DNA from: Nitrososphaerota archaeon
Lineage (GTDB): Archaea; Thermoproteota; Nitrososphaeria; Nitrososphaerales; Gagatemarchaeaceae
DNA: 35,562 nucleotides
Reading direction: 5' to 3'
Assembly (NCBI GenBank): GCA_028866945.1
Contig: JAGWHE010000009.1
Location: 1-35,562, forward strand
Below, piece after piece: positions 1,420-8,170 of the stretch. Numbering within the stretch: position 1 is the stretch's first letter; each line of letters opens with the position of its first letter. Under the pieces are notes generated by a model, which was not told the DNA's origin, did not search any database, and saw only the letters and a list, made by a program, of their open reading frames with translations. A program made the position numbers and the translations under genes.

Positions 1420-2070
1420 TTGTCTGATTCAAGTACGACAAGGGTGGCGGTGGCTGTCCTTGTCACTGCGCTTTGCGTGGCAGGCCTTGCCACGGCCCTC
1501 GTTCAGGTGACCTTCGCCCAGTCGACCGTCAACGTGGTGATTGACAACTTCTCGTTCGCACCCCAAGACATCACCGTGGTCATCGGGGTGAACAACACAG
1601 TGACCTGGACCAACGCCCAATCAGGCGTGCCACACACGGTCACCGCAAACGACGGGACGTGGGGTTCGGCCCAGCTATCGACCGGCCAGACATACACCCA
1701 CACCTTCACGACGGCGGGCACCTTCGGCTATCACTGCAGCATCCACTCGTACATGACAGGCAACGTAATCGTCGTCGGCTCCGGAGCCACATCTACTACT
1801 ACGACGACTACGACCACCACGACAACTGCCCCGACCACTACGACGACCACGACTGCGGCCACGACAACTGCCCCGACCACCACTGGTGCGACGACCTCGT
1901 CGACCGCAACGTCTTCTCCCACGACGAGTTCAGCAGGCGGGATCCCCGAGTTCCCCTACAGCGTCGCAGCGGTCACAGCCATTTCCGCCCTGCTTGCGGT
2001 GTCCTACTTCCTTGCAAGACGGTCCGTCAAGCCAGGGACTCGTCCTGGCGCTTCTCCTCCGCTGAACTAG
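1420..2070 (+). CDS. Cell-surface cupredoxin (plastocyanin-like) with Thr-rich stalk
   Basis: This 216-residue blue-copper protein probably carries electrons outside the membrane. It has an N-terminal signal or anchor helix (about residues 8-33, ending TFAQ) and a cupredoxin domain (about 36-119). His72, Cys106, His109 and Met112 match the type 1 copper ligand set (CSIHSYM). A stalk of almost only Thr, Ala, Pro and Ser follows (about 122-172). A C-terminal PEF motif, hydrophobic helix and Arg pair (about 174-200) resemble the PEFG-CTERM/archaeosortase sorting signal common in Nitrososphaeria. Start TTG 1420 is about 30 bp from TTTATT at 1387. Several N-x-S/T sequons are present. The last 4 bp overlap the convergent phosphatase gene. 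Many thaumarchaeal cupredoxins exist; the redox partner is unknown, though a Rieske operon lies 4 kb away. Confidence 0.87.
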   Translation: MSDSSTTRVAVAVLVTALCVAGLATALVQVTFAQSTVNVVIDNFSFAPQDITVVIGVNNTVTWTNAQSGVPHTVTANDGTWGSAQLSTGQTYTHTFTTAGTFGYHCSIHSYMTGNVIVVGSGATSTTTTTTTTTTTAPTTTTTTTAATTTAPTTTGATTSSTATSSPTTSSAGGIPEFPYSVAAVTAISALLAVSYFLARRSVKPGTRPGASPPLN

Positions 2071-5805: not shown

Positions 5806-5827
5806 GATTCTAGAATTATATAGAATC
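5806..5827 (+). promoter_or_regulatory. Inverted repeat around the TATA box of the Rieske operon
   Basis: GATTCTA (5806-5812) and TAGAATC (5821-5827) are perfect inverted copies separated by GAATTATA, which forms the TATA region. The element is centred about 30 bp upstream of ATG 5846, the expected TATA distance for a leaderless transcript. A dimeric repressor bound here would block TBP. No regulator gene is adjacent. Confidence 0.5.
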
Positions 5828-5845
5828 CAGCATTCCATATCTCAG

Positions 5846-6067
5846 ATGCACAAGCTCTCGCTGATGTCGCTGGTTGCCCTGATGGCGGTGGGAGGGATCC
5901 TCGCCCTCGCCGTCTTCGTGCACCCTGCGCTCCTGTCCTCTCCGGTGCAGTCTCAGTCTGGACCGAGTCCTCCATTGACGAACGGCGCGGGCTCGAACAG
6001 CACCCTGCTGACTCAGCCTCCCGTCTCACAGGGCGGGGGAGATGACGGCGGCTCCCTAGACACGTAG
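5846..6067 (+). CDS. Small N-anchored secreted protein, first gene of Rieske operon
   Basis: This 73-residue protein is not recognised. It has one N-terminal hydrophobic helix (about residues 5-27), then a Ser/Pro/Gly/Asn-rich, low-complexity tail ending in GGGDDGGSLDT, so it is probably anchored with the tail outside the cell. ATG 5846 is chosen because a TATA box lies about 28 bp upstream; longer reading through 5588 would cross the promoter. Three bases separate its stop from the GTG of the four-helix membrane protein, which makes it the leader gene of a three-gene redox operon. It has no Cys and only two His, so it is not an obvious electron carrier. A structural or assembly role is inference. 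Confidence 0.65.
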   Translation: MHKLSLMSLVALMAVGGILALAVFVHPALLSSPVQSQSGPSPPLTNGAGSNSTLLTQPPVSQGGGDDGGSLDT

Positions 6068-6070
6068 TCG

Positions 6071-6559
6071 GTGCCTGGCCTGTTGCCGCAGTCAATCTTC
6101 CTCGGAGACATCACTGGTTTCGCCGCCCTCGCGTTCGTCGGCCTCTCGGCCCTAATGATGGCCTTCAGGGCCAAGCTCCTGAAGCCGCTGGGCGGGGTCG
6201 GTCCTCTCAGGAACGCGCATGTAATAGTGGCCGTGGCCGCAATGGCCTCGCTCGCCCTCCACATCGGAATCCTGTTCAACCTCCCCCTCACGCTGCCGCT
6301 GGACTTGGGGTACGCGGCCTTCGCACTCGGGATCGTCCTGTGGGCGACTGGGGTCGGCTTCCTCGAGCGCAACAAGGATTCCTTCACACTCCACGGCTCG
6401 TTGGCGGTCGCCGTTGCGGCCCTCGTGATAGCACACGCTGCGTCGTCCGGGGCAAACTTCCCCTACTATGTCGCGGTACCGGCATTGTTGACGGCCGGGG
6501 CGATTGCGCTGGTCAGCGGGGCGTATAACCTGAGGAAGCTCCGCCCGAGGCAAGGGTGA
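6071..6559 (+). CDS. Four-helix membrane protein with two His-x13-His pairs (putative diheme cytochrome b)
   Basis: This 162-residue integral membrane protein has about four to five helices. Its only histidines are His50, His64, His108 and His122. They form two H-x13-H pairs on two separate helices, the spacing that ligates two b hemes in cytochrome b (bc1/b6f) and in ferric-reductase-like domains. The next gene is a Rieske protein and overlaps this one by one base (TGATG). Together they resemble a stripped-down quinol or periplasmic oxidoreductase membrane core. Heme binding is inferred from residue spacing and context only. The canonical PEWY quinol motif of bc1 cytochrome b is not visible. 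The start is GTG at 6071, 3 bp after the preceding stop. Confidence 0.7.
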   Translation: MPGLLPQSIFLGDITGFAALAFVGLSALMMAFRAKLLKPLGGVGPLRNAHVIVAVAAMASLALHIGILFNLPLTLPLDLGYAAFALGIVLWATGVGFLERNKDSFTLHGSLAVAVAALVIAHAASSGANFPYYVAVPALLTAGAIALVSGAYNLRKLRPRQG

Positions 6560-7032
6560 TGGGCGTGGACAGGCGTGAGTTCATCAGAAGGGCGTCGATG
6601 ACCGCCGTGTTCGGGGCCATAGGGGCCCTCTCGTTCTTCGAGGCACTTACAAAGCTGGGCGGGCAGGCGGCGCCTAGCACCCTTCAGGTCACTACGTCCG
6701 GCGGGTCGCAGCTAGCGCCTGCTGGGTATCTCTACGTCGCCCCGCTGTCGGCCCTCGCTGGGAAGACCTCGGCTTACTTCAATCACCCCACCCACGGCTC
6801 CTCGATCCTCGTCAACTTCGGAGGGTCGTGGCGGGCGTTCAGCGCGGTCTGCACCCATGCCGGATGCGTGGTCGACTTCACCGGCTCGTCGATCTACTGC
6901 CCGTGTCACGCAGGGTACTTCAGCCCCTCGAACGGGAGCGTCCAGTCGGGCCCTCCGCCCACACCCCTGCCCGAGTTCGGGGTCACGGAGCAGGCTGGGG
7001 CCCTTTACGTCAGTCAGGCAGTGATCAACTAG
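6559..7032 (+). CDS. Rieske [2Fe-2S] protein with Tat signal
   Basis: This 157-residue protein has a twin-arginine-type N-terminus (RREFIRRAS) and a hydrophobic helix (about 14-30), so it is exported folded and probably stays anchored. The Rieske domain shows both cluster boxes, CTHAGC (98-103) and CPCHAGYF (114-121), giving two Cys and two His ligands plus the disulfide cysteines, and a GPPPTPLP tail loop. In box II the Ser and Tyr that raise the potential of bc1 Rieske proteins are Gly and Phe, so a lower midpoint potential is expected. It is the last gene of the operon with the putative diheme membrane protein. ATG 6559 overlaps the upstream TGA; a GTG one codon earlier is possible. Confidence 0.92.
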   Translation: MGVDRREFIRRASMTAVFGAIGALSFFEALTKLGGQAAPSTLQVTTSGGSQLAPAGYLYVAPLSALAGKTSAYFNHPTHGSSILVNFGGSWRAFSAVCTHAGCVVDFTGSSIYCPCHAGYFSPSNGSVQSGPPPTPLPEFGVTEQAGALYVSQAVIN

Positions 7033-7039
7033 GGCCGGG

Positions 7040-8170
7040 TCAGTCTCTCCGCAGCGCTGGGGTGGCGGAGATCAGCGTGACCTCCGCGTTCCCGAGCCCC
7101 TTCTTCATGGCCCTGACCGAGTCCTGGTCTTCCTTCGAGCAGACGATTACCACGTTGTGCTTCAACGGGTCGAAGACCTCCGGCCCTCCCTTCCCCCTCG
7201 AACCCGACACGATGTCTACATCGGTCACGTAGTCCCGCAGCCTCTGCTGTATGCTTTCTGCGACCTGCAGCCGCTCGCCGCGCATCTCATACCTGTCGAG
7301 GCTCCAGAGAAGCGTTATCCTGGTCCTGCTGGCCTTCAACTGCTTCTCCTTCAGCACCTCCCTGGTCTCGTCAACCACGTATCTCACGTAGTTGTCGAAG
7401 CTCTTCAGCGTCGCGCCCGCGAGGTAGGCGATGGCCTCACCGGTATCTTCGCTTGCCTGGATCGCCTTCAGCTCGAACAGGTGCTTCGAGAACTCGTCAA
7501 GGTACACCTCCGACTTCCTCTGCAGCGTGACCCTTGCCTCGCGCGCCCTCCTCGCCATTTCTATCTCGGTGACGGACGCCACGGCCGCCTCCATGACCCC
7601 CGACGCGTATTCCAGTTCGGCCGAGAACACATTCTGGGAATTGGGCATGTACCCAAGTGCCTGAAGCGGACCCTTCTCCTGGAGCCCTGCGGCCGAGACC
7701 ACCGCCGGCTTCGGATCCCTGGGCCTGAGGGGCATGTAGGCGTAGGTCAGGGTCGAACCGACCTGCAGGCCCGTCTGCTTCTCCACTGCCATGATGTTCT
7801 CCGAGTTGCCACCCGGGGCCGTAGGGAGCGAGTTGACCAGGTTCACCCCCCTTGAGAGATATTTCGACAGGTCCCGCAACTTGGACCCCGCCTCGATCAG
7901 GGTCTCGTCCGAAGGTCTCCTGAGCTTGGGAGTGAAGAAGACCACCTGCGCATCTCCGAGCACCTGCTCCAGGGGCTTGAAGCTCAGCAGCGGCTCCTCG
8001 GACATCACCTCTTGGAGGTTGGGGTTCTTCTTCAGGAACCCTGGCTCGATGTCCATTGCCATCTGAAGAGTCTCGTCGATAATTGTCACCTGCGCGCGGT
8101 CGACAAGGTCGGCGGCCAGCTTGTAGGCCTCGCTCGTGAGCCCGTACATCGCGACCTTGATCTTTGGCAA
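7040..8170 (-). CDS. Degenerate UDP-glucose/GDP-mannose dehydrogenase-like protein
   Basis: This 376-residue protein has the outline of nucleotide-sugar dehydrogenases: an N-terminal Rossmann-like region (KVAMYGLTSEA), a VNSLPTAPGG segment in place of the usual STV.PGT, a central helical dimerisation-like region (about 185-290) and a C-terminal nucleotide-fold end (HNVVIVCSKED). The GxGxxG motif is absent and the only Cys is near residue 350, so the catalytic Cys of the GGxCxPKD motif is missing. It is probably not a normal UDP-sugar oxidase; a binding or regulatory role, or another chemistry, is possible. It starts at ATG 8170 with an AT-rich box (8198-8208) about 30 bp upstream. It is transcribed divergently from a DUF354 gene. 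The family assignment is moderate. Confidence 0.6.
   Translation of the reverse strand: MPKIKVAMYGLTSEAYKLAADLVDRAQVTIIDETLQMAMDIEPGFLKKNPNLQEVMSEEPLLSFKPLEQVLGDAQVVFFTPKLRRPSDETLIEAGSKLRDLSKYLSRGVNLVNSLPTAPGGNSENIMAVEKQTGLQVGSTLTYAYMPLRPRDPKPAVVSAAGLQEKGPLQALGYMPNSQNVFSAELEYASGVMEAAVASVTEIEMARRAREARVTLQRKSEVYLDEFSKHLFELKAIQASEDTGEAIAYLAGATLKSFDNYVRYVVDETREVLKEKQLKASRTRITLLWSLDRYEMRGERLQVAESIQQRLRDYVTDVDIVSGSRGKGGPEVFDPLKHNVVIVCSKEDQDSVRAMKKGLGNAEVTLISATPALRRD

Follow-up and report, generated by a model that had tools for sequence, protein, structure and literature searches.

Three adjoining genes in a 35,562-nucleotide (nt) stretch of Nitrososphaerota DNA (the window; contig C15 of a 1.27-Mb assembly) probably encode a minimal diheme transmembrane electron conduit, which would carry electrons from a donor on the n-side of the membrane to an external Rieske protein, with no Q-cycle. 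We infer haem binding, complex formation, the direction of electron flow and the partners from the observations described below. One part of the interpretation in an earlier note on this DNA, a putative diheme b protein linked to a Tat-type Rieske protein and a small membrane protein, is upheld: the histidines and the gene trio are conserved and the His-bearing helices are predicted to be parallel.

The genes follow each other on one strand in the order small gene, membrane-protein gene, Rieske gene (Table 1). The three-gene operon had been placed at 5806-7032; the trio is present there, but position 5806 is not a gene start, the first ATG being at 5846. The small gene's stop and the membrane-protein start are separated by 3 nt, and the described one-base overlap exists, with the Rieske ATG at 6559 sharing one base with the stop codon TGA (6557-6559) of the membrane-protein gene. 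Archaeal leaderless promoters are expected to have a TATA-like box ~26 nt ahead of the start codon. Because such a box precedes the ATG at 5846 by this distance, the sequence suggests a leaderless trio transcript that begins at the small gene. In several further trio loci, L039 and L041 among them, a similar A/T-rich element stands equally far ahead of the small gene. Measured against three relatives of the same genus, all three genes are under purifying selection (dN/dS about 0.14-0.39). In the window (6065-6071) and in L041 (L041:5190-5196), the small and the four-His genes are in frame, with only TAG TCG between them. Since they are out of frame in the remaining loci, the shared frame probably arose by chance or is left over from fission or fusion. 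Downstream, a conserved 376-amino-acid (aa) protein without a Pfam match is encoded at 7040-8170 on the minus strand; in the closest relatives of the window, its gene and the Rieske gene converge.

Table 1. Features of the trio locus, numbered by window position.
Feature	Positions	Strand	Remarks
TATA-like box TTATATAG	5816..5823	+	~26 nt 5' of ATG 5846; read from sequence
Small subunit, 73 aa: single helix at the N-terminus (N-in by charge), LLTxPP motif within a Ser/Pro-rich tail, Gly/Asp-rich C-terminus	5846..6067	+	Homologous to helix 1 of six-helix relatives
Five-helix membrane protein, 162 aa, putative diheme b, ferric-reductase-like orientation	6071..6559	+	GTG start
First His pair: H50 (codon 6218-6220), H64 (codon 6260-6262)	6218..6262	+	Second helix; invariant in 22/22 homologues
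Second His pair: H108 (codon 6392-6394), H122 (codon 6434-6436)	6392..6436	+	Fourth helix; invariant in 22/22 homologues
Tat-type Rieske [2Fe-2S] protein, 157 aa	6559..7032	+	ATG start; bc/b6f-type boxes, Pro loop GPPPTPL, without potential-raising Ser/Tyr
Cluster-binding boxes CTHAGC...CPCH	6850..6909	+	ATG numbering: C98, H100, C114, H117; disulfide Cys C103, C116

A search of 101 relatives found homologues of the 162-aa protein in 21 genomes, and 18 of the 46 genomes of the window's family carry one. Ten loci were recovered by a contig search with a profile made from an 11-row alignment. The four-His family looks narrow, since a phylum-wide sample of 398 genomes yielded, besides the genome of the window, a single marginal match. 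The trio itself proved conserved: the order small gene, 162-aa-like gene, Rieske gene is kept in 12 loci with differing flanking genes between clades. These 12 loci fall in the Gagatemarchaeaceae and a neighbouring family (acid-environment Nitrososphaerota). Parts of the trio are rearranged in L047; no small gene is recognisable in L073 and L078, where the large protein and a Rieske protein are present, and the large protein stands alone in L025/L085. Relatives with named records are mostly Nitrososphaerota metagenome-assembled genomes (MAGs). AcS1-27 (L018/L045) and SubAcS15-15 (L020/L048), which are classed in one family with the window's assembly, have been described as Candidatus Gagatemarchaeaceae, thaumarchaeotal Group I.1c, from acid soils (PMC10640624). 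The window thus presumably belongs to this family of archaea, which are relatives of ammonia oxidisers. The record of L047 (PNBD01000007.1) is titled Deltaproteobacteria; its gene content is like that of Gagatemarchaeaceae loci, and it is probably a misnamed or mixed MAG. In L047, L073, L078 and L086 (e.g., L086:3147-3901), genes for a winged-helix regulator and a small three-helix protein adjoin the four-His/Rieske genes, and this pair resembles haloarchaeal regulator/membrane pairs.

The translated 162-aa protein contains exactly four histidines (50, 64, 108 and 122), which form two H-x13-H pairs as the earlier note had described. All four are invariant in the 22 aligned homologues, whose identity to the window protein is 30-69%. 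Only eight columns are invariant (H50, H64, P72, G80, Y81, G94, H108 and H122), and because half of them are these histidines, the pattern is beyond chance; by simple counting, four given columns of 162 fall within those eight with a probability of ~2.5e-6. R33, R47, W91, an FLER stretch and D103 are additionally invariant in the Rieske-linked subset.

According to the helix boundaries of an AlphaFold model (pLDDT 72.2, alignment of 10 rows; boundaries usable, packing and His geometry not), the His pairs lie on two helices, 43-68 and 105-125, with one helix (75-101) between them. In each of the 22 homologues, 4-11 Lys/Arg residues are found in loop 1, loop 3 and the C-terminus together, and 0 or 1 in the N-terminus, loop 2 and loop 4. 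As Lys and Arg are nearly confined to loops 1 and 3 and the C-terminus, helices 2 and 4, which bear the histidines, are both predicted to run from inside to outside, with the N-terminus outside and, in either pair, the first His on the cytoplasmic side. The His helices are thus parallel by charge distribution, and sharing of two haems between them is feasible. A model of the small and large proteins as one read-through chain, for which the intervening TAG was translated as Gln purely for modelling, reached pLDDT 65.3 with 10 rows. When both models were compared with the PDB by Foldseek, no match fell below E 0.4 (STEAP2, at E 0.58, is not significant), and a profile search of the PDB with the four-His family gave no real match.

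Membership in the cytochrome b or ferric-reductase-like (FRD) families, also raised in the earlier note, was not borne out at the level of curated models, since the window protein stayed below every cut-off. PF01794 matched only 2 of the 22 members, at about E 0.05, the window protein not being above the cut-off. PF01292 and DUF4405 (PF14358) each gave weak matches to 9 of the 22 over the first two helices, below curated cut-offs. PF00033 and PF13631 were not among the matches of any of the 22 members at E 0.1. Profile-profile comparison (hhalign) gave E 0.003 for DUF4405, 0.013 for cytochrome b helices A-B, with the histidines in register, and 0.014 for MsrQ-type FRD; the range for cytochrome b, FRD and DUF4405 was 0.003-0.016, as against ~0.1 or worse for five unrelated membrane-family controls. 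Because the scores to FRD and cytochrome b are weak and similar, sequence alone does not separate the two for this protein. Its anatomy places it in the wide group of two-haem cytochromes; no described family could be shown. We favour the ferric-reductase branch because of orientation and helix count. All 22 homologues share the in-to-out orientation of the His helices of FRDs (NOX/STEAP/MsrQ), in which His-101/209 are cytoplasm-proximal and His-115/222 surface-proximal (PMC3591440). Five helices are present in the window protein and six in seven relatives, and the small subunit apparently supplies the sixth. Thus, where the earlier note had offered a bc1-like or a reductase complex, the ferric-reductase-like alternative is the better one, although no family cut-off was reached.

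The "small anchored third subunit" of the earlier note is indeed a small one-helix membrane protein of the trio, but it is better read as a split-off helix. Seven homologues without an adjacent Rieske gene (8-10 kb inspected) have six helices, with an extra N-terminal helix in the same chain. In 12 loci, the homologues linked to a Rieske gene have five helices, and a small gene stands separately. A helix-1 profile made from the six-helix proteins was run on the called proteins of the retrieved loci, less the four-His proteins. Its top matches were small subunits (L047, 8.6e-7; L046, 1.4e-5; L072, 2.5e-4; L048, 4.4e-4), and those of the window's clade scored lower. In the reciprocal search, a small-subunit profile found a six-helix protein at 2.8e-4, the next non-member being at 0.67. 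The summed helix-1 score of 13 small subunits was 149, compared to a maximum of 53 among 400 residue-shuffled sets. The window's small subunit alone scored 5.6 bits, a value reached by 28 of 400 shuffles; the match is weak for the window's clade and rests on deeper members. The small gene occurs precisely where helix 1 is missing, except for three five-helix proteins (L073, L078 and L085). Given the helix-1 homology and this distribution, the small subunit most likely corresponds to the first helix, now detached, of a ferric-reductase-like domain of six helices; its added external tail is Ser/Pro-rich and ends in clusters of Asp/Gly or His. The six-helix forms constitute one clade; the tree is unrooted, so it does not give the order of fission and fusion. 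A six-helix Rieske-free paralogue is encoded near a cupin gene in three genomes (L077:4322-4726, L079:6131-6541 and L083:3382-3774).

The third protein was correctly recognised as a Tat-type Rieske protein: its start, with DRREFIRR, is Tat-like, and the boxes CTHAGC and CPCH are present. It matched PF00355 at E 1e-9 and TIGR01416 at E 7e-8, the latter under the equivalog cut-off, and its best PDB match was a b6f-annotated iron-sulfur subunit (E 2e-14). Both disulfide cysteines and the Pro loop are retained, which makes it bc/b6f-type in these features. Two and four positions after the last His ligand, all 15 trio-type Rieske proteins have G/A and F. The same positions are S and Y in the two Rieske proteins of contigs C52 and C61 of the same genome, each of which is encoded beside a canonical cytochrome b gene. 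In the yeast Rieske protein, loss of the Ser and Tyr hydrogen bonds lowered the potential by about 130 and 65 mV; such loss does not always lower it, as Kustd1480 shows (PMC12954380). The trio Rieske is predicted to be of a lower-potential type.

Other Rieske genes occur in the same genome and loci. PF00355 has eight matches in the 1.27-Mb genome (G000), on contigs C15, C26, C43 (two), C46, C52, C61 and C72. Those on C26 and C46 have a CVHLWC-type box I as in C61, but no adjoining cytochrome b gene was found. A second Rieske protein, fused to an N-terminal multi-helix domain without a Pfam match, is encoded adjacent to the trio at L045:5330-6379, L046:1340-2338 and L047:6465-7466; in L047 the second fused Rieske gene is directly 3' of the four-His gene. 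Another L047 Rieske protein (L047:8958-9593) keeps the four ligands and has lost both disulfide cysteines together (CTHRPY/CPLH). A membrane-anchored cupredoxin is encoded near the trio, not in the same operon, at window positions 1444-2070 (+), L039:1326-1961 and L047:10424-11497. The window cupredoxin is a candidate redox partner of the trio Rieske.

In the conduit that we propose, the small subunit (helix 1) and the 162-aa protein (helices 2-6) would make up one ferric-reductase-like diheme b domain of six helices. H50 and H108 would ligate the haem on the cytoplasmic side, and H64 and H122 the outside haem. The Rieske protein, Tat-exported and signal-anchored, would dock outside, where electrons would pass between it and the outer haem. 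Most likely, they would come from an n-side donor (menaquinol or a flavin reductase, probably quinol), reach the Rieske protein via the inner and outer haems, and go on from there to an extracytoplasmic acceptor, e.g., a cupredoxin or a metal. Such a conduit would function without a Qo site, subunit IV or a Q-cycle, and it would feed its external Rieske protein much as MsrQ feeds MsrP.

Electrons could also flow inward, although we consider this rather unlikely: an outside donor, either Fe(II) or a metalloprotein such as a cupredoxin, would reduce the Rieske protein, and the haems would pass the electrons to quinone, a reverse flow suited to acidic, iron-rich sites. Relatives of the window include MAGs from YF1 and acid-soil data sets, haem-copper oxidase genes are present in the same assembly, and the cupredoxin gene lies ~4 kb upstream of the trio in the window and near it in L039 and L047. 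However, this gene is outside the operon, a Rieske protein of the predicted lower potential is less suited to oxidising Fe(II) at low pH, and characterised FRD-type proteins carry electrons outward (PMC3591440, PMC5676040).

Quite unlikely is an extracytoplasmic metal or stress reductase, in which the conduit would deliver electrons to Fe(III) or Cu(II) that the small subunit binds with its Asp/His-rich tail, the Rieske protein being a relay. FRDs commonly reduce metals (PMC3591440), and the tail is Asp/Gly-rich, with HHHH in several deeper members. In the window, however, it reads GGGDDGGSLDT and has no His; it evolves faster than the helix (dN/dS 0.31-0.45 vs. 0.14-0.35), and the operon contains no metal transporter.

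That the trio is a stripped-down bc1/b6f complex, with quinol oxidation at a p-side site beside the Rieske protein and recycling of one electron via the two haems, is very unlikely. The reading has in its favour the two H-x13-H pairs, as in cytochrome b, the weak profile match to helices A-B with the correct His register, and the bc/b6f-type Rieske protein with its Pro loop. Yet the His helices of cytochrome b in bc1 run in the reverse orientation to those of FRDs, each pair having its first His outside and the loop that follows helix B being cytoplasmic, and the orientation of the four-His proteins is opposite to cytochrome b in all 22 homologues. The 162 aa contain no PEWY motif, as noted before, the C-terminal domain is absent, and the trio Rieske lacks the Ser and Tyr. 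In addition, the genome has two full cytochrome b genes elsewhere, each with a Rieske protein of the high-potential type; a search of this genome for PF00033 and PF13631 found them only on contigs C52 and C61. The term "bc1-like" was therefore dropped, and a canonical bc1 was rejected on the basis of the orientation and of these separate genes. Likewise very unlikely is a reading without any redox complex, in which the four-His protein would be a haem-binding sensor or an assembly factor merely co-transcribed with an independent Rieske gene: the two haems are themselves predicted from sequence, and the six-helix paralogues and one five-helix homologue (L025) have no Rieske gene, but the trio order is kept in ~12 loci despite diverse flanking genes, and all five-helix members save one adjoin a Rieske gene.

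If the proposed conduit exists, Rieske proteins were paired with two-haem membrane domains twice, with cytochrome b and with an inverted ferric-reductase-like domain, and the second pairing would be a natural test of which bc1 parts are required for Rieske chemistry. It would also mean an undescribed electron-transfer branch in abundant acid-soil archaea, the respiration of which is known from genomes only; the main text of the Gagatemarchaeaceae genome paper does not mention Rieske proteins (PMC10640624). The split helix would be a clean case of a membrane haem domain that tolerates fission. More tentatively, and with considerable doubt, the trio may define a new class of respiratory oxidoreductases, acting on quinol (or metal), in Nitrososphaerota that do not oxidise ammonia: a Rieske/diheme-b enzyme independent of bc1, its first helix split off, whose FRD scaffold convergently acquired a bc-type Rieske partner.

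Two elements of the proposal are already known, the FRD-Rieske linkage from bacterial architecture M4, which is a precedent for an added Rieske domain (PMC3591440), and a conduit with a Tat-exported partner from MsrPQ. The combination of a separate helix 1, four histidines in the short form and a stand-alone bc-type archaeal Rieske protein was not found described in the literature searched. The trio resembles the FRD superfamily (PF01794: NOX, FRE, STEAP and YedZ/MsrQ; PMC3591440) in having a basic loop ahead of each His helix and a C-terminus predicted to be cytoplasmic; if the small subunit supplies helix 1, it would also share the six helices, with the His pairs on the third and fifth. It differs in its separately encoded helix 1 and in the short form that retains all four histidines, a FAD/NADPH domain is missing and the PF01794 model does not recognise the 162-aa protein; its second His pair is spaced x13, compared to x12 in NOX2. 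Cytochrome bc1/b6f has in common with the trio two H-x13-H helices and a bc/b6f-type Rieske protein with disulfide cysteines and Pro loop. In contrast to it, the trio has the inverted orientation and no Qo motif, subunit IV or cytochrome c1/f, and its Rieske protein is without the potential-raising Ser/Tyr. DUF4405 (PF14358) and Ni_hydr_CYTB (PF01292) show weak profile similarity across the first two helices, whereas in the standalone DUF4405 proteins compared, basic residues follow the His helix, corresponding to the opposite orientation. In MsrPQ (YedYZ), as in the trio, a membrane b-type conduit adjoins a Tat-exported redox partner, but this partner is a molybdoprotein instead of a Rieske protein, and MsrQ has Arg in place of the first His, as do the Nitrososphaerota FRDs compared.
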